The notes beneath the pieces were generated by a model. The model did not search any database. It was not told where the DNA came from and saw only the letters and a program-made list of their open reading frames with translations. The position numbers were made by a program, and so were the translations under genes. From positions 1 to 60,479 of IMG/VR virus record IMGVR_UViG_3300048548_000184: a stretch of DNA of 60,479 bases; one strand, written 5' to 3'. The stretch is from a virus. Every line of letters starts with the position of its first letter. Position 1 is the stretch's first letter. Positions 12,103 to 60,127 of the stretch are shown piece by piece.

Positions 12103-12141
12103 AAAAGGGGGGTTGACTATACTCCCCTTTTTTGATATAAG
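12103..12141 (+). promoter_or_regulatory. terminator with the tmRNA promoter's -35 box in its loop
   Basis: A 10-bp stem (AAAAGGGGGG at 12103-12112 with CTCCCCTTTT at 12122-12131) is followed by a T-run to 12133, an intrinsic terminator for the cotransporter operon. The loop begins TTGACT (12113-12118), and TATAAG at 12136-12141 lies 17 bases further. Together these form a sigma70-like promoter starting near 12148, the predicted 5' end of the tmRNA precursor. Confidence 0.75.
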
Positions 12142-12147
12142 TATATC

Positions 12148-12475
12148 TGTTAACGTTGAAGCAACGTAGACACATACTGGACTTGGGGGCAGTACCCAAC
12201 GCCTCCACCATAAATGCACTGCGTCCTGCTGCAACAGGAAGTTTTGCAGAACATAGATGGCCCGAATGGGTGGTCGAAGTTAGTGCATTTATGATGGGGG
12301 CGAACTAGGATCGACAGGTGTGAAAGTGAAGTGGAGTTAACCGTGGTGACTGACGATATTAGGTCAACAAACTAAATGCAAACGATAACTTTGCACCATC
12401 TGGTTACGCACTAGCTGCATAACACAGGGGGTTGGCTACTTACCTAGCAACAGAAAAGTAGCAGATTAACAACTA
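12148..12475 (+). ncRNA. ssrA: circularly permuted two-piece tmRNA (ssrA)
   Basis: The order is that of alphaproteobacterial permuted tmRNA. The acceptor piece comes first (about 12148-12210): a short hairpin ACGTTG/CAACGT, a T-arm TTGGG/CCCAA, and the 3' end CGCCTCCACCA. An excised loop follows, closed by a perfect 12-bp inverted repeat (12209-12220 with 12282-12293). The coding piece starts GGGGGCG at 12296, pairing with CGCCTCC, and has AGGATCGAC. The tag frame at 12378-12422 reads ANDNFAPSGYALAA-stop. A pseudoknot region (GCTACTT/AAGTAGC) follows, and TTAACA at 12466 can pair with TGTTAA at 12148. It would tag proteins stalled on ribosomes for proteolysis. The exact ends are estimates. 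Confidence 0.92.
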
Positions 12476-12489
12476 AGGGAACGAAACAT

Positions 12490-12726
12490 ATGGAAATTCT
12501 AACAAAGGTAAAATCGTGGGCAAGCAATCTTGCTGATGTAGGTATCAGCATTGCAGCTTTGATGATCGTAGTAGAAGTACTAGGTCTTGGGGCTATCCCA
12601 TTTTTCCCTGAAACAAGTGTAGTCGCTAATGTAAGCGGTATGCTTGGTACTCTAGGCGCTGAAGGTCTAATGGGCTTGATCGCTATCTGGGTTCTATATG
12701 CTATTTGGAACAAATCACAAGCTTAA
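12490..12726 (+). CDS. small two-span membrane protein
   Basis: The 78-residue protein has a short amphipathic start (MEILTKVKSWASNLA) and two membrane segments (VGISIAALMIVVEVLGLGAI and GLMGLIAIWVLYAIW). AAGGGA lies upstream. No family is recognised; the size and two spans would also fit a small holin. It lies between the tmRNA and the beta-barrel gene and is probably co-transcribed with the latter. Confidence 0.7.
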   Translation: MEILTKVKSWASNLADVGISIAALMIVVEVLGLGAIPFFPETSVVANVSGMLGTLGAEGLMGLIAIWVLYAIWNKSQA

Positions 12727-21554: not shown

Positions 21555-22010
21555 ATGGCTAAGAATTTAGACTTTAAAGATTTTTTAACTGTGGATTACA
21601 CGCAGACAGGTGATCCACAACTTGCTAAAAACGCAAAGAAGCGTAAGCAACATATTCCTACAGGTAATACAGGAGAGTCTGTAGAACCTGCAGATGAAGC
21701 GTTGAGCATGGCTGCTAGACGCAAAAAAGCAATTACCATGAAAAAAATTCAAGCACGTCTAAAGGTTGGGCGTAAGAAAGCTTCCATGAAAGTTGCCGAT
21801 AAAGGTAGACTTGAAAAGAGAGCACGTAAGGCTGCACGTAATGCTATTGCTAAAAAACTCACAAAAGGTATTTCTAAGGTAGATTTGACTCCTGCTAGAA
21901 AAGCTGAGATAGAAAAGCGCCTAGATAAGATGCAAGGTAAAGTTGGTAGATTAGCCAAGAAAATGCTACCCAAAATCCGTAAGTCTGAACTAGAGAAAAA
22001 ACGTGGGTGA
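21555..22010 (+). CDS. basic virion/internal-type protein with capsid-targeting-like start
   Basis: The 151-residue protein starts MAKNLDFKDFLTVDYT, a variant of the M-x-F-x-x-FL peptide repeated in this block. An acidic linker follows (ESVEPADEAL), then about 90 residues that are strongly basic (ARRKKAITMKKIQARLKVG, LEKRARKAARNAIAKKL). The composition fits a DNA-associated internal or core protein. It is the first gene after a late octamer. No named family is certain. Confidence 0.65.
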   Translation: MAKNLDFKDFLTVDYTQTGDPQLAKNAKKRKQHIPTGNTGESVEPADEALSMAARRKKAITMKKIQARLKVGRKKASMKVADKGRLEKRARKAARNAIAKKLTKGISKVDLTPARKAEIEKRLDKMQGKVGRLAKKMLPKIRKSELEKKRG

Positions 22011-22012
22011 TT

Positions 22013-23458
22013 ATGATAAACAGATTTAGTCAATTTCTTATTGAAGAAGAAAAAACAATTTATATAACGATGGATAACTTTAATCCACCTGCCATTAGTC
22101 ATGGCAACATGTTTGATTCTATTTCAGAATCTTCTAATAAAAGCAATTACAGAATATTCGTAACACCAACGAATGAATCTAAGAACAATCCTTTACCATA
22201 CAAAGAAAAGGTCAAGCAGCTTCGCAAAATGTTTCCGAAGCATGCTAGATCTGTTGTGATGGATTCTACCATTAAATCACCTTTAGATGCTGCTGTCAAG
22301 TTATTTAATGAAGGATATAAAAATATTGTAGTTCTTGGTGAAGAAAATGAAGTAAGAAAGACTACCATTTTATTTGAAAAGTATAATGGAAAGAATAGTC
22401 GTAAAGGATTCTACAACTTTCAGAGTATTAAATCTATTAATCTTGAATCTAAAGGTGCAGATTCAAATAGACAGATCAAAGCAGCATTAAATGAAGACTT
22501 TACTGCATTTGCACAGGGCCTACCTAAGAACGTATCCAACAAAGATGCTAAAGCATTATTTAATGCTGTGCGTAAGGGTATGGGTCTGAAGGAACAAAAA
22601 GAGTTCAAAAATCATGTTCAGTTGTCTCCTGTATCTGATCTGAGAGAAGCCTATGTAAACGATGGACTGTTTGAGCAAGGAGATGAAGTTGTCATGCATA
22701 AACATGAGATTGTAGGCAACATCAAACACCTTGGATCAAACTATGTTATCGTTGAATCCAAAGGCGAGACTTGGAGATGTTGGTTGAACGATGTGTCTAA
22801 GGTACATCCTAGTTCTGAGAATAGATGGCAGGAAGCCCCATACAAAGATCCCGGTGATGCAGGACTGAATGAAGAAAGACTTCCTGATTATGGCACACCT
22901 GAGTCTACAGCAAGAGCTAAGAAGATTACACCTGGTCAAAAAGAAGCTTGTTGGAGTGGCTATAAGCAAGTTGGTATGAAACCAAAAGGTGGTAAAATGG
23001 TTCCCAACTGTGTTGCAGAATATGGTGGTCCACCCATCTCAAGAAAGACTTATCTCAAGCAAGATCCTATGAAAGAGAAGTCTTCTCAAGATCCTGATAT
23101 TAAGGATAGAGAAGGCACACAGCCTAAGAGATATCACTCCGGTCTTCAGAAGGCTACAAAGGTTGCACGTGATAGACACTTTAAGAAGCATGGAAAGAAA
23201 GCTGACAATGATGCGTCTGCTTATAAACCTGCGCCCGGTGATAAAACCGCAAAGACGAAACCGTCTAAATATACTAAAGTAGTTAATAAAATGTTAAATA
23301 AAGAAGATGCTGTACAAATAGCACGTAAGCGTATTGAACGTGAAAAAGACATGGAAAAGAAAAGTGACGCTAATCAAAAAGTGCGTCATGATAAAATATT
23401 AGATAGAGCAAGAAGAGCAAGAATGCTCCGTAGAAACAAGGGTATTTCAGATGATTAA
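22013..23458 (+). CDS. virion-type multidomain protein with nucleotidyltransferase-like domain
   Basis: The 481-residue protein starts MINRFSQFLIEEE, a capsid-targeting-like peptide. Residues 17-150 resemble the HxGH nucleotidyltransferases (MDNFNPPAISHGNMF, IFVTPTNESKNNPLPYKEK, NIVVLGEE). A beta-barrel-like segment follows (GDEVVMHKHEIVGNIKHLG). The last part has the motif PGQKEACWSGYKQVGMKPKG seen in T4-like virion proteins, then a very basic tail. I use ATG 22013 since it gives the shared N-terminus; a GTG at 22007 is also possible. Probably packaged in the head; enzymatic activity is uncertain. Confidence 0.65.
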   Translation: MINRFSQFLIEEEKTIYITMDNFNPPAISHGNMFDSISESSNKSNYRIFVTPTNESKNNPLPYKEKVKQLRKMFPKHARSVVMDSTIKSPLDAAVKLFNEGYKNIVVLGEENEVRKTTILFEKYNGKNSRKGFYNFQSIKSINLESKGADSNRQIKAALNEDFTAFAQGLPKNVSNKDAKALFNAVRKGMGLKEQKEFKNHVQLSPVSDLREAYVNDGLFEQGDEVVMHKHEIVGNIKHLGSNYVIVESKGETWRCWLNDVSKVHPSSENRWQEAPYKDPGDAGLNEERLPDYGTPESTARAKKITPGQKEACWSGYKQVGMKPKGGKMVPNCVAEYGGPPISRKTYLKQDPMKEKSSQDPDIKDREGTQPKRYHSGLQKATKVARDRHFKKHGKKADNDASAYKPAPGDKTAKTKPSKYTKVVNKMLNKEDAVQIARKRIEREKDMEKKSDANQKVRHDKILDRARRARMLRRNKGISDD

Positions 23459-23681
23459 CTTTAAAAACCATATTGTTTTAGAAGGTAGCTTTGCAGATAA
23501 ATCCAAAGCATCAGGAATATCTGTAGGCACTCTAAAGAAAGTTTATAACCGTGGTGTTGCAGCATGGAAGACAGGGCATCGTCCCGGGACTACTCCACAA
23601 CAATGGGGGCATGCACGTGTGAATGCGTTTATCGCAAAGAAGAAAAAGGGTAATCTAAATCACGACAAGGATCTAGCATAA
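23451..23681 (+). CDS. DUF5824-like phage virion-associated protein
   Basis: The 76-residue basic protein begins MINFKNHIVLEGSFADKSK, then GTLKKVYNRGVAAWKTGHRP and GTTPQQWGHARVNAFIAKKK. The VY.RG.AAW..GHRPG...QWG..RV pattern is the conserved core of a small family (I believe DUF5824) found next to virion genes in many phages. The function is unknown; the charge suggests contact with packaged DNA. It overlaps both neighbours by a few bases. Confidence 0.75.
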   Translation: MINFKNHIVLEGSFADKSKASGISVGTLKKVYNRGVAAWKTGHRPGTTPQQWGHARVNAFIAKKKKGNLNHDKDLA

Positions 23682-25195
23682 TGGATGACGTAACACAACA
23701 CTCTAATAAAAAACTATCTACCATTCTGAGAAATCCAAGTCATCCCATGCATTCTGCTGCGAAAGCAGAGCGTGATCGCCGCATGGCACAAAGAGAAGAT
23801 AAAGATCTTGACGAAATTAGCTTAAAAGACCTGTCGAAAAAAATTTCACGGTCTAGCGGTAATAAAAACATTAATAAAGCCATGAAGCCAACCTTTGATA
23901 AAACAAAGAACGATTTGGCTGCAATGCGTAAACGTTTGGATGCTTTGAAGGCAGGGTATGCTGCAGAGAGTGTTGAGCTTGAAGAAGGCGTAATCGATCA
24001 AGTAAAAGATATTGTTGCCAATAAACAAGCCAAGAAGATCAGTGGTGTTATGGTGGACATGTTCACTGCATCTGCTATTTCTCAGATTTATGATAAAGTT
24101 AACGATGCCAATAAAGCAAAGATGGATAAGCTACCTATCGTAAAGCTTGCAGATGTTGCTATGAAGATGATGAAGCGTGAGTCTACAGTTAGTGAAGCTA
24201 AACAGGTTCTTGCACATGGTGGTAAGGGTCAATACAAAATAGTTAGTGACGGTGGTGCTATTAGTGTTATGTTTAAGGGCAAAGTAGTTGGTAAAGGCGA
24301 CTTTGATCGTGGTGCAGATAGTTTCTTTATTAGTATGAAGGGTCAAAAAGGTCAAAAATCTTTTGACGATGCACAGGACATTGCAGACTACTTCGCAAAA
24401 ATGAAAATCAAAGAAGAAGTACAGATTGATGAGATTTCGGGAAAACTTTACAATAAGGCATTAGCAGGACGTAAAGATAAAATAGATCGTACTAGAAACA
24501 GTGCATCAGCAAATGCGTTGCGTATGAATAAACCTGAGATGAAAAAAGATTTAAAAAAAGCTGATGATATGCAGCGTAAGCTTGACAAGATGAAGCAGAT
24601 GGGTATTGATCGTACTGCACGTAATCTGCGTAAAGAAGAAACACAGCTTGAGGCTGCACCGAAAATGAAAGGCGATTGGCTAAAAAAAGAGCGTGAAAGA
24701 AATCGTGAGCATGATGCAGCGATGGGCCGTACAGCTACAGGGCGTAAGAAACCAACACGTACTATGACTTCTACTCAGAAATCTTTGGCATCATTGCGTA
24801 AAGAAATGAAAGAAGCTTTCGAACCACATATGATGTATGATCCTAAGACAGGAAAAGGTTACAAAGCTGAGAAAGAAGCTGATCATTTACGTATGAAGAA
24901 AATGGGCTATACTCATGATAAGCCTGAGGTAAATGAAAAATATAAGATTATGCACAAAACAATGTCTGCAGCATTACAGCATGCTTACGATGAAGCTGAG
25001 AAAAAAGGCTTTGAGGTTGACAAGGATGATATCGACAACAAGGTTGCAATGGGTCCAAGAAAACCATCATCAGGCAAAACAAACTCTTATAACTTAGGTC
25101 TATCTAAGAACGGTAAACCTGTGAAGAAAAAGCTGCATATCCAAGTGTACAACATGGATAATAAAGGCTATGAACTAAACATGTATGTGAGTTAA
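23681..25195 (+). CDS. modular internal-protein polyprotein candidate
   Basis: The 504-residue, highly charged protein looks like a string of small modules separated by acidic linkers: AAESVELEEGVID near residue 94, KREsTVSEAK near 168, KEEVQIDEISGK near 248 and KEETQLEAAPK near 324. The modules are basic and helical except for a beta-type segment (GGKGQYKIVSDGGAISVMFK). Several linkers contain [LI]-x-E, the sequence cut by the T4-type prohead protease. A head-internal protein processed during maturation is the simplest reading, but no domain identity is certain. It starts on the last base of the preceding gene. Confidence 0.6.
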   Translation: MDDVTQHSNKKLSTILRNPSHPMHSAAKAERDRRMAQREDKDLDEISLKDLSKKISRSSGNKNINKAMKPTFDKTKNDLAAMRKRLDALKAGYAAESVELEEGVIDQVKDIVANKQAKKISGVMVDMFTASAISQIYDKVNDANKAKMDKLPIVKLADVAMKMMKRESTVSEAKQVLAHGGKGQYKIVSDGGAISVMFKGKVVGKGDFDRGADSFFISMKGQKGQKSFDDAQDIADYFAKMKIKEEVQIDEISGKLYNKALAGRKDKIDRTRNSASANALRMNKPEMKKDLKKADDMQRKLDKMKQMGIDRTARNLRKEETQLEAAPKMKGDWLKKERERNREHDAAMGRTATGRKKPTRTMTSTQKSLASLRKEMKEAFEPHMMYDPKTGKGYKAEKEADHLRMKKMGYTHDKPEVNEKYKIMHKTMSAALQHAYDEAEKKGFEVDKDDIDNKVAMGPRKPSSGKTNSYNLGLSKNGKPVKKKLHIQVYNMDNKGYELNMYVS

Positions 25196-25198
25196 GGT

Positions 25199-25507
25199 AT
25201 GAAAACATTTAAGACATTCTTAGAAGAAAAAGATCCTAGACTTGCACGTGCAGGTGTATCAGGGTTTAATAAACCTAAAGGTACACCAAGTCATCCTACT
25301 AAGTCGCATATTGTTGTGGCTAAATCAGGTGGGCAAGTAAAGACAATCCGTTTTGGTGAGCAAGGTGCAAGCACTGCAGGAGATCCGAAGGCAGGTGAGT
25401 CTGACAAGATGAAAAAGAAGCGCAAATCATTTAAGGCTAGGCATGCTAAGAATATTGCAAAAGGTAAAATGTCTGCTGCTTATTGGGCTGACAAGGTTAA
25501 GTGGTAA
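25199..25507 (+). CDS. conserved basic virion-associated protein
   Basis: The 102-residue protein starts MKTFKTFLEEKDPRLAR, the closest match in the window to the T4 internal-protein start MKTYQEFIAE. A conserved block follows: GFNKPKGTPSHPTKSHIVV, KTIRFGEQGASTAGDPKAG and ARHAKNIAKGKMSAAYWADK. I recognise this block from many phages (possibly DUF6321). It is basic and probably packaged with DNA; no activity is known. Confidence 0.75.
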   Translation: MKTFKTFLEEKDPRLARAGVSGFNKPKGTPSHPTKSHIVVAKSGGQVKTIRFGEQGASTAGDPKAGESDKMKKKRKSFKARHAKNIAKGKMSAAYWADKVKW

Positions 25508-25803: not shown

Positions 25804-27468
25804 ATGGGCAATGTAATATCAAAGTTGATTGAGGCGTATGCAGAAGTCAACGAAAAAAAGAAACTAGACCCTGTAGGGCAAGCTGATGCAGATATCGATA
25901 ACGATGGTGATGTAGATAAGTCTGATAAATATCTGCACAATCGTAGAAAAGCTGTTAAGAAAGCTATGAAGGATGACGAAATGAATGAGCTTTCAAATAA
26001 AACTCTTACAAGATATGCGATGAGTGCTGATAACGATGTACAAAAAAGAAGATCAAATCGTCCAGCTGGCAAAGGTGACGAATCAGATCCTAAGATTGGT
26101 AAGCGTTTAGATAAGATCAACCTTGCTCATAAAAAAGGTGCATTTAAAGAAGAAGTAAATGAAGCATATGAATCTGTCTGTAAAGAAATGAAGAAAATGC
26201 ATGATGAAGGTTACGGCAAAAAAGCTATCATGGCAAAATATAAGCACATGGAAATGGCAACTGTTGAGAAACTATATGCTCAAACATGTGGCACAAGAGA
26301 AGAAGTCGAAGAAAGTAGTAAAGCTGCACTTGCCAAGAAGTTAGCAAAGGCTGCTGCACCTTCTGAGAAGGGTAAGAAAGCTGTCACTTTGAAGAAAGCT
26401 CCTTTTGATATTCCTAAAGAAGAAAAGAATGAAGAAGAAATCATTATGAATCCTAAGAAGGATAAAGATAAGAAGGCTGACGCTGAAACAATGAATACTG
26501 AATCTGTTGATCTTGATGAAGATCTTACACACCAAACAGTAAAGCCACCGAGTCATACTAAAAAGTATTCTAACAGTGATTCTAGAGACACAAATAGCAT
26601 CGGAGGTGGCGGTACTAAGAGACATACTGTAACGAGTAGTCAAGCAGATGCTCATGATAAAACTGCTTCTCATCACGATAATGTTGCGGATGCTCATACA
26701 AAGGCAAGTGAAAAATCTTCTAGTTTCAAGATCCGCAGCTTGCATAGTAAAGCCGCTAGATTGCATAGAAATGCAGCAGAAGCACACCGTGATTCTTCTC
26801 ATTCTAGTTCAGGTGCAGATAATGATGGTTCTATTCAAAAAACAGCAAAGCATATGCACACTGCATACCATGCAACTATGGCTGCTAATGATTCATCAAA
26901 ACAAGCGAGAAATATGGGTACTAAAGCAAAGCGTATGAATACTGAAGAAGTTGAACTAGAGGAAAGCTTGAAAAAGCACATGTCTCCTTACGATGCAAAA
27001 GAATTCTTAAAAAAACACAATGCACACAATAAAGACTTCCATGCGTTGCCGGCATCATCGGCAAGCGCAATGCACGATAAGGCTAAAGAATTAAAATATA
27101 AGAAAAGTAAATCAGCACCAGGTTCTACAGGTAGAATGTTCCATGCAGCACTACAAAGGCATGCTGATAGTTATAAGGGTACAAGCGAATCTGTTCTACC
27201 ACCTGTATACGCACGTATTCTTGAAGAAAGAGAAAAGCATTACAAAGGTGCTACAAAACCTGAAGGAATGATGGACAATTCTAAGTCTTCTAAGGGTGCC
27301 ATGGATATGGTTAATCAACCAAAAGAGATTAACAATGATGACGAAAAAGGTCATGAAGATGCAAGCAAAGCAGGTAGAGTTGGACCAAGTGCCAAAGCAC
27401 GTCCTGCTGATAATATGAAAGGTGACAAGAAGGTAATCCCTTCCGCAACCCCAATGAAAGGAAAATAG
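25804..27468 (+). CDS. large modular virion/internal protein with EF-hand-like start
   Basis: The 554-residue protein begins MGNVISKLIEAYAEVNEKKK, followed by ADIDNDGDVDKSDKYLHNRR, a D-x-D-x-D-G calcium-loop pattern. Long charged modules follow, separated by linkers (FKEEVNEAYESV, TREEVEESSK, NTESVDLDEDL, NTEEVELEESL) like those of the 23681 gene. One module is rich in His, Ala and Ser (residues about 255-375). The C-terminus is acidic then basic. AAGGAG precedes ATG 25804. Likely an abundant head component or scaffold-like protein that is cut at the linkers. Confidence 0.6.
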   Translation: MGNVISKLIEAYAEVNEKKKLDPVGQADADIDNDGDVDKSDKYLHNRRKAVKKAMKDDEMNELSNKTLTRYAMSADNDVQKRRSNRPAGKGDESDPKIGKRLDKINLAHKKGAFKEEVNEAYESVCKEMKKMHDEGYGKKAIMAKYKHMEMATVEKLYAQTCGTREEVEESSKAALAKKLAKAAAPSEKGKKAVTLKKAPFDIPKEEKNEEEIIMNPKKDKDKKADAETMNTESVDLDEDLTHQTVKPPSHTKKYSNSDSRDTNSIGGGGTKRHTVTSSQADAHDKTASHHDNVADAHTKASEKSSSFKIRSLHSKAARLHRNAAEAHRDSSHSSSGADNDGSIQKTAKHMHTAYHATMAANDSSKQARNMGTKAKRMNTEEVELEESLKKHMSPYDAKEFLKKHNAHNKDFHALPASSASAMHDKAKELKYKKSKSAPGSTGRMFHAALQRHADSYKGTSESVLPPVYARILEEREKHYKGATKPEGMMDNSKSSKGAMDMVNQPKEINNDDEKGHEDASKAGRVGPSAKARPADNMKGDKKVIPSATPMKGK

Positions 27469-38268: not shown

Positions 38269-38809
38269 TTTACCAAGCCATATACACGTTGTTTCTGTAG
38301 AAGATCATTCCTATTGGAAACCATTATTACTTGAATCTATTAATAGTATGATAACTAAAAACAATATTCAAGTCAATGAGAAGGGATATTATTACGATTT
38401 TAATATTCCGAAAGTGCATAGAGATTATGGTAAGTTGATGGACAATATACTTTTGTCTTATGTTGAAGATACTTTGTGTGATAATTATGGGCTTAAAAGA
38501 GAAGGCACTGACACATATTGGTTTCAGCAATACTTTCAAGGATCTGATTTTGGTTGGCATCAACATTCAGGGCATTGGGCGATGGTTTATTATGTTGAAT
38601 TGCCTGAAATGACAGAGGCAACTGAGTTCTTAAACTACGGTCAATTCAATGTTAAAGAAGGCGACATTATATTTTTCCCAACATTTTTAGTTCATAGATC
38701 TCCAAGTATTAAAAGTAATCAAAGAAAAACCGTGATAGCAAGTAATCTAGACTTTACTGTGGATAGAGAAAGAATAAATTATTATGGCATCGAATATTTT
38801 AAACATTGA
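38234..38809 (+). CDS. 2OG-Fe(II) oxygenase family protein
   Basis: The 191-residue protein has FGWHQHSGHWAMVYYVELPE near residue 104 with the HxH-type metal site. GDIIFFPTFLVHRSP near 148 has the distal histidine, and NQRKTVIASNLDF has a basic residue for 2-oxoglutarate. This pattern fits the phage 2OG-Fe(II) hydroxylases (TIGR02466-like). The substrate is unknown; the gene heads the glycan island, so a sugar or protein side chain is likely. I use ATG 38234. Confidence 0.7.
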   Translation: MTNLTTNNSKDNLPSHIHVVSVEDHSYWKPLLLESINSMITKNNIQVNEKGYYYDFNIPKVHRDYGKLMDNILLSYVEDTLCDNYGLKREGTDTYWFQQYFQGSDFGWHQHSGHWAMVYYVELPEMTEATEFLNYGQFNVKEGDIIFFPTFLVHRSPSIKSNQRKTVIASNLDFTVDRERINYYGIEYFKH

Positions 38810-39389
38810 CGATCATTACTTACAATGGCCTAAGGATAGTTGGGGTGGCACAGATCTAAACAATCCTGATATGGTCAATCCTTGGTTAGAGATACAAGAC
38901 ATTGTAAATCCTAAAAAAGTTATTGAGATTGGTATGTTTGCAGGGCACTCATCTTTATTGATGATGAATGTGTTTAAGAACCTAGAGACTTTAGAGAGTT
39001 ATGATCCTAGTGAAGTATCTAAACATAATTATAGACAAATTAAGAAATATTATCCTCAACATACATTTTATCAAGAGCCTATCTGGAATAATGAACACAG
39101 ACATACTGATATCGATTTAATATTTGTGGATGGAGATCATACAGCACCTGCACCTGAAAAAGATCTAGGATCTTGTATGAAAATAAAGCCAAGATACATT
39201 CTTGCTGATAACATAGAGCATCTTGGAGTTCGTGATCCAACAAAGAGAAAGTTTAAATTATGGGATGTTAAGTATGATCCTAAGTATTGGTTTTATACTA
39301 ATGTTAAATATAGTAGAGTTACTAAACGCACACTGAAATCCCCCGGAATTATGGGGCTATTTAAAATGGAAGGCACTTATGACAATTGA
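38784..39389 (+). CDS. class I SAM methyltransferase (Methyltransf_24-like)
   Basis: The 201-residue protein has KVIEIGMFAGHSSLLMMNVF near residue 45, the SAM-binding E-x-G-x-x-x-G loop, and DLIFVDGDHTAPAPEKDLGS near residue 111. Such enzymes methylate hydroxyls of sugars or small molecules. It overlaps the oxygenase gene by 26 bases and belongs to the glycan island. Confidence 0.8.
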   Translation: MASNILNIDDHYLQWPKDSWGGTDLNNPDMVNPWLEIQDIVNPKKVIEIGMFAGHSSLLMMNVFKNLETLESYDPSEVSKHNYRQIKKYYPQHTFYQEPIWNNEHRHTDIDLIFVDGDHTAPAPEKDLGSCMKIKPRYILADNIEHLGVRDPTKRKFKLWDVKYDPKYWFYTNVKYSRVTKRTLKSPGIMGLFKMEGTYDN

Positions 39390-39627
39390 AATGATTTTGA
39401 ATCTTAGATACCAATGGGAATCTATGGTATCGTTTAGAAGAAGTTACGATTTACCTAGCTATGAGGGCAATATACATAACTTAAAGGACTTTATTAAAAA
39501 CGGACATAAGTCTAATAGATTTAGAAAAAACTTTAACGAAGCCATGCGATTAGCGAAAGAGATTGTTGAATATTATGAGCGACCTGTGGCATCATTGGAT
39601 AAAAAGCTGGCGAGACAATCACGGTAA
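39379..39627 (+). CDS. hypothetical protein
   Basis: The 82-residue basic helical protein contains YQWESMVSFRRSYDLPSYEG and SNRFRKNFNEAMRLAKEIVE. It has no recognisable domain. It overlaps the methyltransferase end by 11 bases and the next gene start by about 50 bases. Function unknown. Confidence 0.6.
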   Translation: MTIEMILNLRYQWESMVSFRRSYDLPSYEGNIHNLKDFIKNGHKSNRFRKNFNEAMRLAKEIVEYYERPVASLDKKLARQSR

Positions 39628-40396
39628 AGATACTATCAGATGGAAAACAACTGTAGGTATTGGCGACAGTATGTATGGTCTTAACATTGCTTATATGAGA
39701 GCATTTGCTAATCAAAAACCAACAAAGTTTCAACTACATTTTTTTCATCCAAAAGACTATGTACATCACTATGAAGACCCTGAAGCAGTTGCGGCTAGAG
39801 TCGAATATATTCGTGACAGGTATATGTGGAAAGATATTGTAGATGTTGAATACGTTTATGATAGCACTGACACAGTATTATATAAGCAGTTTTATCAAGG
39901 CGTCACTAGACGCAAGCACTCTGAACTATATCGATATTGGGCATTAGATCCTACATTATCCACTAATTCGCAGAATAGAAAAATAGTTTTGTGGAGACCT
40001 ACTAATAATATGCAACAGCAAATTGCTAATGATAAATATATACTTTTAGATTGGGAGTGGCAAAGGCTTATTGACAGGTTAGAAGATTTTGGATATAATG
40101 TGACAGAGATTGACTATAGAACTCCTATAAGAGAAGCGTTATATCATATAAGAACTTGTGAGTGTTGTTTGTCGTATGAGGGGATGTGGCATTATATTAG
40201 TAAGAACCTTTTTAAGCCTCATATAGTGATAGGCACTTCTAATATTTCTAAGTGGCATACTCCTGCTGCAGTATTAACAGATAAAGGGTTCTATATAGAT
40301 AGAGATCTTAAAAAGATTGATTATATGATAGAGTCCGCAACAGAGAACGCAGAAAACTATAAAAAATTATTTTTTAAATTTGTGAACGGGTGGTAG
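39575..40396 (+). CDS. glycosyltransferase-like protein (GT9/GT-B-like end)
   Basis: The 273-residue protein has a DTIRWKTTVGIGDSMYGLNI start and KIVLWRPTNNMQQQ near the middle. The end has CECCLSYEGMWHYISKNLFK followed by PHIVIGTS, which resembles the sugar-nucleotide-binding end of heptosyltransferase-type (GT9) enzymes, where a conserved acidic residue precedes the W/H-x-A helix. It is a weak resemblance. Its place among glycosyltransferases supports a sugar-transfer role. I use ATG 39575. Confidence 0.5.
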   Translation: MSDLWHHWIKSWRDNHGKDTIRWKTTVGIGDSMYGLNIAYMRAFANQKPTKFQLHFFHPKDYVHHYEDPEAVAARVEYIRDRYMWKDIVDVEYVYDSTDTVLYKQFYQGVTRRKHSELYRYWALDPTLSTNSQNRKIVLWRPTNNMQQQIANDKYILLDWEWQRLIDRLEDFGYNVTEIDYRTPIREALYHIRTCECCLSYEGMWHYISKNLFKPHIVIGTSNISKWHTPAAVLTDKGFYIDRDLKKIDYMIESATENAENYKKLFFKFVNGW

Positions 40397-40397
40397 T

Positions 40398-41357
40398 ATG
40401 CAAATAGACAGAGCCGTTATCGAAATACAAGGTGGGTGTAACTACACTTGTCAAATGTGTCCACAGACTAATCCTGATGGCACTACAGGCGCACGTGGTA
40501 AAAACTGGATGAAGAAGATGCCATTGGCAGAGTTCGAAAGATATGTTGCTGAGTGTGCAGAAGCAGGACTGAATGTTGTAAATCTTGATGGATCTGGCGA
40601 GGCTACAATCTCTATGGATCTGCCAAAGTATATTGAGGTGGTTAAGAAGTATGGAGCACAGGCTGTAATCTTCTCGAATGGATATCGTATGAACGGTAAC
40701 TTCATGAAAGAATGCGTAGATGCAGGATTAGATTTCTTTAGGTTTAGTATTGTAGGGTACAACTATGATAAATATAAAGAGTGGATGAACAGTGAGCATT
40801 TCTACAGAGTAATATCTAACCTTCACGAAATGAAACGTTACGTTGTTAGTTCTAAATCGAAATGTGTTGTTGCAACATATCACCTAATACTTGATAATGA
40901 TAACATTGATCATGAAGTTGAAGAGTATAAGAAGATCGTGAAGTCTGCTAATGTTCAGACAGAGATTTGGAAGATGCATAATTGGAGTGGTGTGTATGAT
41001 CCTGAGTATGATAGAATTGGTGAAAAGAAAACTTGTGGTAGACCCTTTTCCCCTGATATTGTTATTAGGGCTGGAGGTCTTGGTAGTAGCACTGGCGCTA
41101 TTCATCCTTGCTGTCAAGTACTAGGAAGAGATGATGAGGCAGTGTTAGGACACGGTTCACTCAACACGCTTGAAGAGATTTGGTATGGAGATGAATATAA
41201 TACGCTGAGAAAGCAACATGAAACAGGAGACTATCCTGACTTTTGCAAGAGTTGTGACTTCTTGATTGACGATCCTGAAGTTTTAGTGTATACTAATCAT
41301 GGACGTGAAAACTATAAAATGTATGGAACAAAGTTTAACTTGGATGATTACAGATGA
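40398..41357 (+). CDS. radical SAM/SPASM enzyme
   Basis: The 319-residue protein has AVIEIQGGCNYTCQMCPQ, the CxxxCxxC iron-sulfur site. NLDGSGEATISMDLPKYIEV corresponds to the SAM-contact strand, and a cysteine-rich C-terminal SPASM region (KKTCGRPFSP, HPCCQVLGR, DFCKSCDFL) would hold auxiliary clusters. SPASM enzymes modify peptides or carry out dehydrogenation and epimerisation of sugars. In this cluster a sugar or a peptide linked to the glycan is the likely substrate, but none can be named. Confidence 0.88.
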   Translation: MQIDRAVIEIQGGCNYTCQMCPQTNPDGTTGARGKNWMKKMPLAEFERYVAECAEAGLNVVNLDGSGEATISMDLPKYIEVVKKYGAQAVIFSNGYRMNGNFMKECVDAGLDFFRFSIVGYNYDKYKEWMNSEHFYRVISNLHEMKRYVVSSKSKCVVATYHLILDNDNIDHEVEEYKKIVKSANVQTEIWKMHNWSGVYDPEYDRIGEKKTCGRPFSPDIVIRAGGLGSSTGAIHPCCQVLGRDDEAVLGHGSLNTLEEIWYGDEYNTLRKQHETGDYPDFCKSCDFLIDDPEVLVYTNHGRENYKMYGTKFNLDDYR

Positions 41358-41821
41358 TAGAAGATCCTCTATACTTACCTAAAGACACTAAGGTGTTTAT
41401 CATATGTAACCCATATGATAATAACCACATGAGTAAAAAGATTGAGCTTGAGCATAACATAATGCGTTATGGATACGAGACAAATATTCAATACTACGTT
41501 AAAGCTAAAGATATTAGAGACCAAACTTTGGGATTTACTTTACCTTTATCTTCCGCAAAGATTGGGGATGATGGTGTATATCAATGGTATACTTTATATT
41601 CAGTTTTAATAAAAGCTAGAATTCTTAGAAAAAAATACATAATCACTTTCGCAAACTTTAGTAGATTTGATAATGATATCAGAAGGACATCCTCACACAT
41701 TCAGCTTCATGAGGGGAAAAGACTTTTGCTAGATCATAAATCCTCTCAGTTTATAATAGACAATATTCATAATATTATTAATAAGTATTCTACAGTAGAG
41801 AATTATATAGCGAATGAGTAA
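41354..41821 (+). CDS. hypothetical protein of the glycan island
   Basis: The 155-residue protein has KVFIICNPYDNNHMSKKIEL and a basic middle part (LYSVLIKARILRKKYIITFA). The first strand may be a nucleotide-binding beta strand, but no DxD or other glycosyltransferase motif is clear. It overlaps the radical SAM gene by four bases and the next gene by eight. Function unknown. Confidence 0.6.
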   Translation: MIEDPLYLPKDTKVFIICNPYDNNHMSKKIELEHNIMRYGYETNIQYYVKAKDIRDQTLGFTLPLSSAKIGDDGVYQWYTLYSVLIKARILRKKYIITFANFSRFDNDIRRTSSHIQLHEGKRLLLDHKSSQFIIDNIHNIINKYSTVENYIANE

Positions 41822-42464
41822 CACCCCACCTGTTTATATGATTGCAATAGAAGAACATCCTGTTTCAATCATGTATGTAAGAGAGGTCTTGCCTTCTTGG
41901 AAAAAGTTTGGAGTAAAAATAAATTATTCTAAAGCAACTACCCCAAAAGATTTAGCATATAGAAATAATTTAACTTTTACTATAAAAAAAATGGGTAGAG
42001 AGAAAAGAGAATTTACTTCTACAGAAAAGGCTGTTTGGTATAGTCATTTTGATTTGTGGTGTAAATGTGTGAATGAAGGTCCACTTATTATTGTAGAGCA
42101 CGATTCTATGCTGAGAAAACCTTTACCAAATCTTTCAAAAGAAGGGTATAAATTTTTATCTTATGTACAACCAGATGAAGGTGAAAAATACCTCCTAGCA
42201 ACGGGTTCAGGATACTATATTACTCCACCTGTAGCAGAGAGATTGATTGCAAGAGCAGTTTGCAAGCCAGTAGACAGAAATAGTGATGGTCATATAAGTT
42301 CAGTTTTGAATTTTAATAAACAAAGAAAAATGTACGATTATCTCTACATAGAACAGATTAATTTTGATGGTCTAAATACCATAGATCACCGCACTACAAA
42401 AAGAAATTATATAGGTTTAGATTATGAAAACATTGATTTATCAAGTATACACAGGCAAACGTAA
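41814..42464 (+). CDS. GT25-like glycosyltransferase
   Basis: The 216-residue protein begins TPPVYMIAIEEHPVSIMYVR and has STEKAVWYSHFDLWCKCVNE, then GPLIIVEHDSMLRK. The SH-x-x-x-W helix before a strand ending in an acidic pair is the core of the LPS glycosyltransferase family 25; EHD replaces the usual EDD. A GSGYYITPPVAERLIARA segment fits the second half. It would add a sugar, often galactose, to a surface glycan. Two more GT25-like genes occur at 47967 and 48806. Confidence 0.7.
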   Translation: MSNTPPVYMIAIEEHPVSIMYVREVLPSWKKFGVKINYSKATTPKDLAYRNNLTFTIKKMGREKREFTSTEKAVWYSHFDLWCKCVNEGPLIIVEHDSMLRKPLPNLSKEGYKFLSYVQPDEGEKYLLATGSGYYITPPVAERLIARAVCKPVDRNSDGHISSVLNFNKQRKMYDYLYIEQINFDGLNTIDHRTTKRNYIGLDYENIDLSSIHRQT

Positions 42465-43224
42465 AAAGCTTTACGACTTTTGTACTGCGTCAGTTAAAGC
42501 ATACGCAGAAAGAATAGGCGCTGATTATATTGTTCAGAGACAGCCTATTCTTATGATAAAGCCCGATATATTTCAAACAAATAGATCAAACGAATCCTAC
42601 GGTAAGTATGGTGGGTTTCTTCCTATATATGAAAAAGAAAATGCCTTTGCATATTTCAGGTCATATGATAAGATTGCTTTGATTGATGGTGACATTTACA
42701 TAAGAGAAACCGCACCAAATATCTTTGACGAAATCAGCAATGATCATGACTTCGCAGGTGTTATTGAACGTGAGATGCCTCTTAATAATCAATACATGGC
42801 AAAGATTGCAAACTACTCACGTATGCAATATCAGACAATCAAAAATGTTGATTGGAAGTGGAATAAGCATGGTGCTGAGTTCTTTAACATGGGCATGATG
42901 CTCATGAATAAGTCTATGGGTAAATACTTAAACGGAGAGACCCCTGCACAGTTTTTAAGGAGACCTAGATTCAAACCATTCATTGATGGACTTGGTGCAT
43001 GGAAGTGGTCTACAGATCAAACTCTTCTTAACACTTGGGTTAGGGAAGAGAAGATGCGATTAAAACATCTTGATTGGAAGTGGAATGGTCTGTATAATGC
43101 GGTTCCTAATGAAAAACTTCATGAGGCACACTTCATCCATTTCTTTCATAAAACTGTTTTGCCAATGGAAGGTGAAAATATTGAAGAGCTTGCCAAGCTA
43201 GTAGATATAAAGGATATGCGATGA
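42424..43224 (+). CDS. GT8-like (GT-A fold) glycosyltransferase
   Basis: The 266-residue protein begins KTLIYQVYTGKRKKLYDF and has YDKIALIDGDIYIRETAPNI near residue 80 with the D-x-D metal motif. HGAEFFNMGMMLMNKS and STDQTLLNTWV then follow, all hallmarks of GT8-type enzymes. HFIHFFHK near the end may give the third metal ligand. Its first 40 residues closely match those of the protein at 45704, so the two are paralogues. It starts 41 bases inside the preceding gene. Confidence 0.78.
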   Translation: MKTLIYQVYTGKRKKLYDFCTASVKAYAERIGADYIVQRQPILMIKPDIFQTNRSNESYGKYGGFLPIYEKENAFAYFRSYDKIALIDGDIYIRETAPNIFDEISNDHDFAGVIEREMPLNNQYMAKIANYSRMQYQTIKNVDWKWNKHGAEFFNMGMMLMNKSMGKYLNGETPAQFLRRPRFKPFIDGLGAWKWSTDQTLLNTWVREEKMRLKHLDWKWNGLYNAVPNEKLHEAHFIHFFHKTVLPMEGENIEELAKLVDIKDMR

Positions 43225-43850
43225 GATTTTTAGAAATAGCAGGTTCTAAGCAGCGTGGATTAAATTGGGATGCTGTACGTGATGTGAAGATGCCGGGAGT
43301 TATGGTCTATGACATGACAGACCTTCCTATGAGAGGCGTGAAGGATAAAACCTATGGTGGAGTGTATAATGAACATTTCATAGAACATCTCACAAAAGAT
43401 CAAGGCATAAACTTTCTAAAAGAAATGCTACGTGTGATGAAACCTTTTGGAACTATTAGAACAGTTTGGCCTCCTATGGATTTTGTAGAGTGGTTACGAC
43501 AAGATAACGATTTAGATGATCACCCTTGGGTCAAACATTACTACCAATTTTATGTGGTAAAACATAAGTTTGCTCCTAAAGGCACAGAGTTTATGCGTAT
43601 GCAAGATCAGTGCGCTGAAGGTATTATGTGGCAGGGCGGTGAGCACAAATATATTTGGCGTAAGCAAGAACTTATTGATACTATGAAAGAAATAGGTTAT
43701 ATTAATGTAAGAGAAAAAAAATATCAAGAAAGTGGATTATCTGCATTTAAAAACATTGATACCGAAGGTGATATTAGAGCATTCCATTCTGCAGTTATAG
43801 AGGCACAATCCCCTGCAGAACAGAAAAGCCAAATGGAGCTAGACTTATGA
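43221..43850 (+). CDS. SAM methyltransferase-like protein (Methyltransf_11-like)
   Basis: The 209-residue protein has VYNEHFIEHLTKDQGINFLK and EMLRVMKPFGTIRTVWP, matching the post-motif-II region of type 11 methyltransferases (EHxxEH, then LkPGG). The glycine-rich SAM loop is degenerate, since the protein starts at about the second strand. It may methylate a sugar or act as a truncated, non-catalytic relative. It is embedded in the glycosyltransferase run with four-base overlaps. Confidence 0.65.
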   Translation: MRFLEIAGSKQRGLNWDAVRDVKMPGVMVYDMTDLPMRGVKDKTYGGVYNEHFIEHLTKDQGINFLKEMLRVMKPFGTIRTVWPPMDFVEWLRQDNDLDDHPWVKHYYQFYVVKHKFAPKGTEFMRMQDQCAEGIMWQGGEHKYIWRKQELIDTMKEIGYINVREKKYQESGLSAFKNIDTEGDIRAFHSAVIEAQSPAEQKSQMELDL

Positions 43851-44518
43851 AAAATATTATCCTACAACACTTTGATGGAGAGTTAAGAGAACTTGACAAA
43901 TTATCTATTGCTAATATTCAGGAATATGCTAGACTAGTAAATGCCGATTATAAACTAATCACGGGTAAGCCTTTTCGAAAGCATCTTACATCACCCTGTC
44001 AAAAGGTTCATATGCTTCATGAAGAGTTTGACGATTATGATGACGTACTAATGCTTGACATAGATATGTTTACTCCAAAAGGAATGAAAACTAATGTTTT
44101 TAAAGAGGTGGGTGTAGGTCTTTATGAGGATGTGCAAAAAAGATTGCACCGACAAATAGCTCAAGTGTATCCATTACAGGCTAGTGCAATTTATCCTTAT
44201 TGGGGCGGGGCTATCTATAAGCTTTCTAAAAAAATGAGAATACAACTTAGATCAGGGTTAGGTGGTAATGAAACATGGATGAACAACTATAACAAATTAT
44301 ATCATTTTGAAGATGAGGGTATAATGCACACCTTATCTATGAAGTCAAATTTCAGACCCAGAGAACCTTATCTTAACAAAAAATGGTGCCAGTGTAGTTT
44401 TCTTCCCAATCCAGAAAACGCTGGGTTTATTCATATCAGAACCAAGATTACTCCTAATGGACCAAAGAGAGAGAAAATAGAAAACTATCAATATCTAATT
44501 GATCAAGATATACTGTAA
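43847..44518 (+). CDS. GT8-like glycosyltransferase
   Basis: The 223-residue protein begins KNIILQHFDGELRELDKLSI and has EYARLVNADYKLITGKPF and DDYDDVLMLDIDMFTPKG with the D-x-D motif. YPYWGGAIYKLSKKM and an EDEGIMHTL segment follow, as in GT-A-fold enzymes. Shared N-terminal features (the EYA...NADY segment) tie it to the other two GT8-like proteins of the island. The donor and acceptor are unknown. Confidence 0.7.
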   Translation: MKNIILQHFDGELRELDKLSIANIQEYARLVNADYKLITGKPFRKHLTSPCQKVHMLHEEFDDYDDVLMLDIDMFTPKGMKTNVFKEVGVGLYEDVQKRLHRQIAQVYPLQASAIYPYWGGAIYKLSKKMRIQLRSGLGGNETWMNNYNKLYHFEDEGIMHTLSMKSNFRPREPYLNKKWCQCSFLPNPENAGFIHIRTKITPNGPKREKIENYQYLIDQDIL

Positions 44519-44529
44519 AGGATAAGATT

Positions 44530-45702: not shown

Positions 45703-45703
45703 A

Positions 45704-46516: not shown

Positions 46517-46526
46517 GAGATAACTA

Positions 46527-47384: not shown

Positions 47385-47385
47385 A

Positions 47386-47961: not shown

Positions 47962-47966
47962 AAGCA

Positions 47967-48803: not shown

Positions 48804-48805
48804 TT

Positions 48806-49453: not shown

Positions 49454-49454
49454 T

Positions 49455-58268: not shown

Positions 58269-59222
58269 ATGCAAAATTTTTCTTCATTTCTAGACGAACT
58301 CATTTATGGCGAGACTGTTTCTGATCCTATCAGAGAAGAGTATATTGAAGAACAGTTTGATGAACTTATGGAAGCCCTTATCACATTTGGTGGTAAGGCA
58401 TATCCTAAGTTTGGTAACGTTGTTATCATGGCTGGTGGTGCAGGATCAGGTAAAGGTTTTGTCAAGGACAAACTAGTTGGTATCGAAGGGTTCACCTTTG
58501 ATGTTGATGCGCTAAAGACACTGGCGGCTGCAACTCCTGCTATCCAAAAACGTGTGAAGAAAGAACTTGGTGTTGATCTAGAGAAACTAGCAGATAATCT
58601 AAAAAAATCTGAAAATGTTGGTAAGCTGCATCAGATCATTGGTGACTATCTAAAGCTAGACAACAGACGATTAAAAGCACTGTACACTTCTATTATGACC
58701 GCAGACCCTGAACGTAAGCCAAACATCATTTTTGATGTGACTTTAAAAGATCTACAGAAACTAGAAAAGCTTACACGTCAAGTTTCTTCTATTGGTTACG
58801 ACAAATCAAACATCCACATCGTTTGGGTTGTTAATGATATCGAAGTAGCTAAACAGCAGAATAAAACAAGAGACCGTGTGGTTGATACAAATATTCTTAT
58901 AAACACCCACAGAGGTGCCTCACAGACCATGGGCGATATCGTGAACATGGGTACAGATTTACGTAAGTATATGGATGGCGATATTGTATTCGCATTCAAC
59001 AAAGTTGATGTTGACAGCACAGTACTAAAAAATCAGCCAAAAGGTGCAGGTGACAAGATTGGTATGAAGGGCGACACAAAGGGTGGCATGTTCATCAAGG
59101 ATGCAAACTACTTCTATGTAAAACGTAAAGGTAAACCGCCAACATCTGTTGCAAAGCTAGAAAAATCTCTTCGCATGAAAATCAAATCATATGTACCTAA
59201 AGGGGTTTCTTGGGATGATTAG
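58269..59222 (+). CDS. P-loop kinase-like protein with capsid-targeting-like start
   Basis: The 317-residue protein starts MQNFSSFLDELIYGET, a capsid-targeting-like peptide with L-x-E. At about residue 50 is NVVIMAGGAGSGKGFVKDKL, a Walker A loop as in zeta-toxin/polynucleotide-kinase-type enzymes. IIFDVTLKDLQKL and VWVVNDIEVAKQQNKTRDR fit the remaining kinase core, with a basic tail. The late promoter and the N-terminus predict that it is packed into the head and might enter the host with the DNA. The substrate is unknown. Confidence 0.7.
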   Translation: MQNFSSFLDELIYGETVSDPIREEYIEEQFDELMEALITFGGKAYPKFGNVVIMAGGAGSGKGFVKDKLVGIEGFTFDVDALKTLAAATPAIQKRVKKELGVDLEKLADNLKKSENVGKLHQIIGDYLKLDNRRLKALYTSIMTADPERKPNIIFDVTLKDLQKLEKLTRQVSSIGYDKSNIHIVWVVNDIEVAKQQNKTRDRVVDTNILINTHRGASQTMGDIVNMGTDLRKYMDGDIVFAFNKVDVDSTVLKNQPKGAGDKIGMKGDTKGGMFIKDANYFYVKRKGKPPTSVAKLEKSLRMKIKSYVPKGVSWDD

Positions 59223-59736
59223 TTTCAAACAACACCTACAGGAAAGTGAAGAACTAGAAGAAAGTGTAGTTGCCTCTGCTATGGAGTTGTGGAATATTGT
59301 TTCATCTTTAAAGGCTTCAGGAGTGTCGTATGAGGCAATGGTTTTGATATCATTCTTCACTTTCATTCCTGCTGCTGTTGGTGCCACGGCTGAACTATGG
59401 ACTAGAAGTGATGATCGTGAAGTAATCAATAGAGCAAAAGCGATTATTAAAAAAATAGAATCGGGTGATGCTAGTAAAGATGATTTAGAATATTTGAGTG
59501 ATTATGGTCAAAACCTAGTAGACTGGTTAGGTGGTGGCGCATATCGTAAGGATTCAAAATATATCAACAACAGAACTGGACGTAGATATACTCAACTAAA
59601 AAGTATTAGTTACAGTACGTTGGTAAACATTGATGCTATTGCACGTTGGGCATACAGAAAACTAACAGGTAAACAACCAAAGAAAATTAAAATCTCTAAA
59701 TCTATTATTCCACAGGTAAAAAGAAAAGATGCTTAG
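59215..59736 (+). CDS. virion/internal-type protein with membrane segment
   Basis: The 173-residue protein starts MISFKQHLQESEELEESVVA, a capsid-targeting-like peptide with two [L]-x-E sites. A hydrophobic segment follows (AMVLISFFTFIPAAVGATA), then a basic helical end (WAYRKLTGKQPKKIKIS). ATG 59215 is preferred over an upstream in-frame start because it gives the shared N-terminus. It may be an internal protein that inserts into the membrane on entry, which is inference. Confidence 0.65.
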   Translation: MISFKQHLQESEELEESVVASAMELWNIVSSLKASGVSYEAMVLISFFTFIPAAVGATAELWTRSDDREVINRAKAIIKKIESGDASKDDLEYLSDYGQNLVDWLGGGAYRKDSKYINNRTGRRYTQLKSISYSTLVNIDAIARWAYRKLTGKQPKKIKISKSIIPQVKRKDA

Positions 59737-60127
59737 TTTTAAACAACACTTACAGGAAGCACAGTGTGACCTTGTAGGTATGAAACAGATCAAACAGTTT
59801 GAGAAGATTGTCGATCAACTCTTTAAGAAGTTTGATATTGATTTTAACTTCACACGTCACTTCGCTGATCGTATGAGTGATGAACGCAACACTCCATGTA
59901 TTACCATGAAAGAGCTTGCTGAGTTTATTAAGAAGATCTATGCAAAGCAGGGTAAGTCTCTGAAGGGTATCGCAGGGGCAGAAGCAGTTGTGAAAGACAT
60001 TCAAAAAGATCTGAACATTCCTGTTGCAGTTACCTATGATCAACGTAACGATGAGTTTGACGTTGTGATGAAAACAATCATGCGTAAGAAAAACTTCAAA
60101 ACACCAAACAAGGTTATTACTTACTAA
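59729..60127 (+). CDS. conserved virion-associated protein with capsid-targeting-like start
   Basis: The 132-residue protein starts MLSFKQHLQEAQCDLVG, almost the same as the previous protein, and then has DFNFTRHFADRMSDERNTPC and ELAEFIKKIYAKQGKSLKGI. I recall this second part as a conserved phage domain near virion genes, sometimes compared with toxin-type RNases because of the R-H-x-x-x-R-M arrangement. The activity is unknown. It starts eight bases inside the previous gene. Confidence 0.65.
   Translation: MLSFKQHLQEAQCDLVGMKQIKQFEKIVDQLFKKFDIDFNFTRHFADRMSDERNTPCITMKELAEFIKKIYAKQGKSLKGIAGAEAVVKDIQKDLNIPVAVTYDQRNDEFDVVMKTIMRKKNFKTPNKVITY

Follow-up and report, generated by a model that had tools for sequence, protein, structure and literature searches.

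The question: one start on unrelated proteins

Why should otherwise unrelated phage proteins begin with nearly the same ten residues? The question is raised by IMG/VR virus record IMGVR_UViG_3300048548_000184, a 60,479-base fragment of a T4-like phage (the window), in which several predicted proteins, designated here by open reading frame (ORF) position, share an N-terminal peptide of the form M-x-x-F-x-x-[FH]-[LI]-x-E (the tag). In this marine T4-like phage (Kyanoviridae) it is very probably a T4-type propeptide that directs proteins to the capsid. An earlier note on this DNA had proposed that a set of unrelated, enzyme-like proteins is packed in the head. This is supported by the conserved residues, which are those that function in T4, by the protease and capsid protein encoded in 13 of 13 large relatives, and by tagged enzymes in the virions of three cyanophages.

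Judged by its sequence, the gene content of the window appears to be that of Kyanoviridae, the marine T4-like phages. The best annotated relative of the 22013 protein is in Phage C48C1 (Kyanoviridae), followed by those in Methylophilales phages Melnitz and Pelagibacter phage HTVC008M.

Occurrence of the motif

All seven ORFs singled out in the earlier note (21555, 22013, 23451, 25199, 58269, 59215 and 59729) exist, and their starts were read directly. A scan for the exact motif, M..F..[FH][LI].E, which that note had proposed as a check, finds it at 4 of the 573 Met positions of the window (six frames, at least 60 amino acids following), all of them named starts: 25199, 58269, 59215 and 59729. 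At any position in long plus-strand frames it is found 5 times in 17,779, and four of the five are these same starts. Do all seven share it? Four are exact, with aromatic or hydrophobic residues at 4 and 7, L or I at 8 and E at 10, and two are shifted by one residue: 22013 (MINRFSQFLIEE) has an additional residue ahead of F, and 23451 (MINFKNHIVLE) has its E one residue late and V-L-E rather than [LI]-x-E. The seventh departs from the claim. The 21555 protein was said to begin LDFKDFLTVD; its true start is MAKNLDFKDFLTVD, which keeps F-x-x-F-L and has V, then D at the place of a cleavable E, as do many of its relatives.

A strict rule, M.{1,3}[FY]..[FHYW][LIVM].[ED], is wider than the exact motif and was set before any proteome was read. 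It is satisfied at 5 of 262 start-type codons of the window (first 25 amino acids of an ORF) against 1 of 768 deeper codons; for the window and nine T4-like genomes together the figures are 35/4212 and 20/15,900 (Fisher 8.5e-12, codons at 26-40 left out). By genome, strict-rule starts number 7 in C48C1, 5 in the window, 4 each in G008, G009 and S-SCSM1, 3 each in G004, S-CREM2 and T4, 2 in G001 and 0 in HTVC008M. Some of them, e.g. T4 MTRKYVKWIAED and C48C1 MKDYSHFMVE, are probably chance matches.

That the sequences differ behind the shared start is borne out: the bodies are unrelated in an all-against-all blastp at E<=1, which yields scraps (best E 0.095). They are basic, with pI 9.2 to 11.1. 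In 59215 and 59729 the tags are nearly identical in residues and differ in codons.

Likeness to T4 and to known packaged proteins

According to amber-suppression mapping, targeting of T4 IPIII depends mainly on residues 4 and 7 and its processing on 8 and 10; aspartate at 10 blocked processing with targeting unaffected (PMC9026906). The positions conserved in the window tags are 4, 7, 8 and 10, the same as these functional positions. T4 ipII and ipIII start MKTYQEFIAE. T4 gp23 has FGSFLTE ahead of AEIGG, at its processing point. Because it lacks the E, the 21555 protein is predicted, by analogy with T4 position 10, to be targeted yet uncut. In the models of 58269 and 59729 the tag is predicted, with low confidence, as a short helix (residues 4-13 and 4-11).

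The system is very probably of the T4 capsid-targeting kind, with which it agrees in the features compared in the phage or its relatives; what is new is the lineage, the cargo, the modular polyprotein alternative and a counterpart on the protease. As in T4 IPI, IPII and IPIII, a ten-residue N-terminal propeptide with aromatics at 4 and 7 and an [LI]-x-E end precedes basic cargo with unrelated bodies; a gp21 protease is encoded by relatives of the phage. The differences are that the cargo consists of predicted enzymes (nucleotidyltransferase, kinase, RelE-like protein, DUF6267, SAM lyase) for which no kinship to IPI-III was detected, that F and H stand in place of Y and F, that the phages are marine Kyanoviridae, and that cargo exists also as polyprotein modules. 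T4 Ip1-3 block host restriction (PMC12373910). T4 Alt, a virion ADP-ribosyltransferase, is likewise a head-packaged enzyme with a short propeptide, but its start, MELITELFDE, has no aromatic pair, and the tagged proteins do not match the Alt family in Pfam or PHROGs. Polyvalent proteins (PMC5512222) also combine several effector-like domains in a single polypeptide that the phage packages; they are described as acting as one long multidomain protein, whereas the modules described here are often flanked by likely protease sites and exist also as separately tagged genes. In the giant phages phiKZ and SPN3US, head and ejection proteins have a propeptide cut after x-x-E by a gp21 relative; the phiKZ motif is S/A-x-E against L/I-x-E here, and the available parts of the sources describe no short common aromatic tag for either phage. 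In the literature searched, which leaves most subscription journals outside its coverage, no description of a capsid targeting sequence in cyanophages was found; the T4 review (PMC9026906) was the only match listed with both cyanophage and capsid targeting.

Tagged proteins in the virions of relatives

Are tagged proteins found in particles? In relatives they are, according to published mass spectrometry. The virion list of Synechococcus phage S-CREM2 comprises 52 proteins (PMC10665884). The strict rule applies to 3 of 219 S-CREM2 coding sequences, and all three are in the list (p 0.013; 0.0027 among non-structural proteins): the SAM lyase ORF6 (MKDFDSFLEE; PF23780), the kinase ORF14 ((V)KRFDAFLTEE) and the cytidylyltransferase ORF154 (MKNFSSFLTE). 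ORF13 (MKDLHSFLTE) and ORF136 (MQTFSMFFSE) are also listed, matching only a rule widened afterwards. That wider T4 rule (5/6 detected, p 0.003) is discounted as a test, having been written after the list had been partly seen; the loosest rule gives 6/12 (p 0.039). In S-SCSM1, where the record labels 48 proteins as virion by our own count and the paper gives 45 (PMC9602691), the strict tag is at three annotated starts, and two of these proteins, gp31 and the NMNAT gp91 (MKSFLQFLKE), are labelled virion. With the two phages taken together, the virion contains 5 of 6 tagged proteins against 95 of 495 others (p 0.0015). In S-SZBM1 a cytidylyltransferase is the sole enzyme detected in the virion (PMC9146016), and it starts MRFRQFIIEA. 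Relatives of the 22013 protein are virion proteins in S-CREM2, S-SCSM1 and S-SZBM1.

Cyanophage virion proteomics has repeatedly found enzymes (NMNAT-like cytidylyltransferase, kinases, SAM lyase) whose route of entry was so far unexplained; the tag on these enzymes would explain their presence in particles. It also offers a rule for metagenomes that can be read from sequence: since tagged enzymes are in the particles of related phages, the first ten residues can reveal enzymes probably carried into the host. The T4 internal-protein concept is thereby extended to marine phages and to enzymes.

S-CREM2 ORF12 (L048:7704-10313), reported in the virion, is annotated as Cas9. It has no Pfam family at E<=0.01, and the label looks doubtful; the protein has RFASFMAE close to the N-terminus and TFRDFLN at the C-terminus.

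Conservation of the tag

The 58269 kinase has relatives at 39 loci, fetched without a tag probe, and in most of them M-x-x-F-x-x-[FHY]-[LI]-x-E or a near variant is retained. Tag and kinase domain are joined by a linker of variable length, from a few to about 30 amino acids, and a second L-x-E adjoins the kinase domain, its E35 being invariant in 33 aligned sequences. Among distinct relatives, including copies fused inside longer ORFs, and with at most 80 loci taken in per family search, the strict tag is on 102/153 for 22013, 71/123 for 23451, 27/43 for 58269, 48/86 for 59729, 8/97 for 25199 and 1/1 for 59215. The tallies of 59729, 25199 and 23451 are biased upward, because one of the six peptide patterns used to find each set of loci came from the tag; the probes for 58269 and 22013 held no tag. 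A tag on every relative is ruled out by HTVC008M (0) and by the strict counts for 21555 (3/126), 23681 (1/57) and 25753 (0/47). Is the arrangement limited to marine phages? In Klebsiella phage Miro (Straboviridae, T4's own family) the kinase starts MKSFKQFTESTLTE, then ALITFGG; with this tag-like start the arrangement is not so limited.

For one family, that of 25199, the tag is restricted to T4-type neighbourhoods. Among 97 distinct loci with this body, 8 of the 27 with T4-like neighbours carry the strict tag, against 0 of 70 elsewhere (p 1.5e-5). The 70 pool the mid (12) and non (58) classes; one script both counted the tags and assigned the classes, by the density of matches to ORFs from three T4-like genomes. 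The body at L139 is 91 per cent identical to that of 25199, yet it starts MAAEKDPRLARAG against the window's MKTFKTFLEEKDPRLARAG; the tag is therefore a prefix added onto an existing protein.

Protease, capsid protein and the protease tail

Which enzyme could cut the tag? The gp21 protease and gp23 are encoded in 13/13 large IMG/VR records, selected for holding family members, and the gp23 N-termini (13/13) have [LIM]-x-E close to the expected processing point, as judged by eye. The protease gene, which the earlier note proposed to locate outside the window, is thus present in the relatives; in the 60-kb fragment itself neither a prohead protease nor capsid genes were found. A Pfam search of the fragment for Peptidase_S77/S78 gave no match; for S77 it is uninformative, because the S77 control matched nowhere either.

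The protease carries a counterpart of the tag. In 9/9 Kyanoviridae records the gp21 C-terminus ends in a motif of the F-x-x-F-L kind: REFKNFLSL in C48C1 and close relatives, FEKFM in HTVC008M (gp21 = L046:23211-23867), FHDLL in S-CREM2, FNDFL in S-SCSM1, FEHFL in S-CAM1, FAKFL in Melnitz-1, FEAFL in P-RSM4, FQDFL in ACG-2014f and FHEFL in S-SZBM1. It is absent from gp21 of T4, KP27 and Rhizobium phage P10VF. An F..F[LIMV] tail is on 78 of 79 close gp21 relatives from viral_contigs, which are near copies. Since the gp21 tails are homologous, they represent conservation within a changing tail, not independent events. A related pattern in the last 16 amino acids is found in 21 of 1970 proteins of ten genomes, among them, besides gp21, S-SCSM1 virion gp93 (RTFKEFLEYIE), S-CREM2 virion ORF12 (TFRDFLN) and ORF154. 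Of 5 proteins with the C-terminal pattern in the two phages that have virion proteomes, 4 are in the virion (p 0.006), one of the four being gp21. The likeness of the gp21 tail to the tag suggests that protease and cargo may share a docking surface on the prohead core.

Modules and polyproteins

Proteins that are separate in the window are joined elsewhere. PHROG 3041 fuses counterparts of 22013 and 23451, and PHROG 23027 parts of 21555 and 59729. A polyprotein at L079 (3897-6377, an 826-amino-acid open frame) consists of the nucleotidyltransferase, the 21555 module, both DUF5824 parts and the 59729 module consecutively; it unites four window modules, though 59729 sits 36 kb from the rest in the window. 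At its junction it reads SFDSLME where the separate gene reads SFKQHLQE.

Are the module borders likely protease sites? At the start of N-terminal module copies [LI]xE is found in 90/93 (22013; shuffled mean 30.8) and 21/21 (59729; 4.2), and for the remaining N-terminal copies in 55/66 (16.6) and 30/30 (19.2). For internal copies the evidence from sequence is moderate: 16/31 for 59729 (8.7 on average in shuffles, with 16 also reached by the best of 2000) and 17/28 for DUF5824 (mean 7.8, best 15), with 9 per cent and 1 per cent, respectively, in windows further upstream in the same frames. The border test omitted loci where the match began after query residue 8 or where the upstream frame was of intermediate length or cut by a contig end. 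Over whole proteins, 22013 has the sole clear excess, 11 [LI]xE against 3.4 expected. That 23681 (4 against 2.9, p 0.33) and 25753 (5 against 3.0, p 0.17) are polyproteins rich in protease sites is not borne out by these counts.

In two further polyproteins, L104:5314-7692 and L107:3765-6626, the nucleotidyltransferase and the 59729 module are combined with additional domains; one of those in L104 resembles an HNH-type nuclease by eye.

A proposed packaging route and its alternatives

How might the tag work? As a short amphipathic helix, the first ten or so residues would present an F-x-x-F/H-L/I face by which the protein docks on the prohead core. The docked protein would be enclosed once the shell closes round the core, and a gp21-type protease would then cut after [LI]-x-E and release the cargo inside the head. 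The freed cargo would remain with the DNA and probably accompany it into the host. Alternatively, the same modules could be packaged as segments of one polyprotein. Docking on the core, injection and a benefit to the phage are what we infer from the comparisons above. A more general scheme is offered tentatively, as slightly more apt to be wrong than right: a plug-in packaging code of Kyanoviridae, in which an F-x-x-F-L helix at either end binds the prohead core, an N-terminal helix with a gp21 site marks deliverable cargo, a C-terminal helix, which cannot be cut off, anchors gp21 and a few virion proteins, and modules shift between tagged genes and a gp21-diced polyprotein, supplying the cell at the onset of infection with tools of nucleotide/NAD and RNA metabolism.

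Several results weigh against capsid targeting by the tag. Taken by itself, S-SCSM1 does not reach significance (p 0.076), and one of its tagged proteins, gp30 (MKTFKQFMSE), carries no virion label. Untagged neighbours are in the particles as well: gp89, gp90, gp92, gp93 and gp97 of S-SCSM1 and ORF155, 156 and 160 of S-CREM2 are virion proteins with no N-terminal tag. As gp92 shows, the tag is therefore not the sole way in; these neighbours rule out that the tag alone predicts the virion set, and the earlier claim that the first ten residues suffice to identify the entire set is not supported. The relative HTVC008M has no strict tag, just short N-termini ending LxE, and the chance match MKDYSHFMVE in C48C1, which satisfies the strict rule, is on a DNA-helicase ORF. 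The overall number of [LI]xE in 23681 and 25753 is not in significant excess, and cleavage of the tag in this phage is presumptive.

Could the tagged proteins instead be assembly helpers of the prohead core, degraded or expelled at maturation and not delivered to the host? In T4, gp21 cuts scaffold and core proteins, which for the most part exit the head (PMC9026906), and the tagged proteins are basic, but complete enzyme folds lie behind the tag, [LI]xE is at domain borders and rare within domains, and tagged relatives are found in CsCl-purified virions, all of which makes this reading unlikely. Very improbable is another N-terminal signal (for nucleoid, membrane or degradation), with virion detection in relatives due to co-purification. 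The evidence consists of sequence and other groups' mass spectrometry, and the S-CREM2 authors themselves mention co-purification and do not exclude it (PMC10665884); set against this are the four positions identical to the tested T4 signal (PMC9026906), an L-x-E end that matches the site where gp21 probably cuts the capsid protein of these phages, the pooled virion enrichment, and the 25199 body, which outside T4-like neighbourhoods is without the tag. Chance, or a single start region duplicated recently, is hardly credible in spite of the neighbours 59215 and 59729, nearly alike over ten residues: the enrichment at starts refutes it for the pooled genome set, conserved positions use different codons, and linkers vary in relatives. 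Capsid targeting of the T4 type remains the preferred explanation.

Candidate cargo and other features of the window

The features are collected in Table 1. What does the tag carry? The 58269 body (PF06414 29.1 bits against a cut-off of 22.3; PezT 3q8x, Foldseek E 3e-4) is predicted to have a P-loop kinase fold closest to PezT/zeta toxin, with polynucleotide kinases also among the matches. The model of 59729 most resembles RelE/HigB/ParE toxins, on moderate evidence: these are the top VIA-align rows, at Z 6.4 and lower, under the tool's warning level of 8; ClpX-type AAA proteins also match, ranked under the RelE rows, and Foldseek gave no significant match (best E 0.08). By its sequence matches, 22013 is NMNAT/cytidyltransferase-like. 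The Pfam search found no families for 59215, 25199, 21555 and 23681. The tagged cargo of relatives includes SAM lyase, kinase and DUF6267, the last in C48C1, and G008 and G009 have tagged proteins that share the start KNTHMTHIEDKVLYGG. From the predicted folds one might guess at a role after entry in nucleotide, NAD or RNA metabolism.

Table 1. Tags, tagged proteins and untagged neighbours in the window
Feature	Position	Strand	Evidence or remark
Tag-like stretch LDFKDFLTVD without cleavable E	21567..21596	+	
21555 candidate cargo, basic; module homologue of phrog_23027 and the L079 polyprotein	21555..22010	+	8.9e-12; body pI 11.1
Tag MINRFSQFLIEE of nucleotidyltransferase-like protein (F5, F8, L-I-E)	22013..22048	+	strict rule; border [LI]xE in 90/93 relatives
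22013 candidate cargo, cytidyltransferase/NMNAT-like domain and basic tail	22013..23458	+	phrog_395 4.7e-42, phrog_3041 3.6e-36
Variant tag MINFKNHIVLE (V-L-E)	23451..23483	+	relatives have INE, LEE or IEE there
23451 candidate cargo, C-terminal half of DUF5824	23451..23681	+	PF19141 5.7e-19
23681 multi-module basic protein without tag, within the cluster	23681..25195	+	zero Pfam/PHROG matches
Tag MKTFKTFLEE	25199..25228	+	exact motif
25199 candidate cargo, small basic protein of 102 amino acids, phrog_7595	25199..25507	+	1.7e-42; body pI 10.7
25753 multi-module protein without tag, start MGNVISKLIE	25804..27468	+	
Tag MQNFSSFLDE	58269..58298	+	exact motif; modelled helix 4-13
58269 candidate cargo, predicted P-loop kinase, zeta-toxin/polynucleotide-kinase-like	58269..59222	+	PF06414 8.1e-07; second site LME35 ahead of domain
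Tag MISFKQHLQE	59215..59244	+	exact motif
59215 candidate cargo, family unassigned	59215..59736	+	one distinct relative among 358 fetched loci
Tag MLSFKQHLQE	59729..59758	+	exact motif; border [LI]xE 21/21; modelled helix 4-11
59729 candidate cargo, RelE/HigB/ParE-like fold (moderate evidence)	59729..60127	+	model pLDDT 89.6

A second, distinct P-loop kinase-like protein is encoded at L420:3322-4002 (G008:C1:83322-84002) with the tag MIKFKKFMTE; a similar HTVC008M protein begins MIPFILKE. The 25753 protein shares a module, LDPVG..DADxDNDG..SDKYLxNRRKA, with S-SCSM1 virion protein gp92. Near residues 18-55 it has a conserved DADIDNDGDVDKSD, present also in gp92, that resembles an EF-hand/dockerin calcium loop.

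Elsewhere in the window, ARAGORN places a phage-encoded tmRNA at 12117-12513, with the tag peptide ANDNFAPSGYALAA. From 38784 to 50147 there is a long run of ORFs on one strand, of about 150-390 amino acids each, which by eye resemble genes of sugar, methyl or glycosyl transfer.

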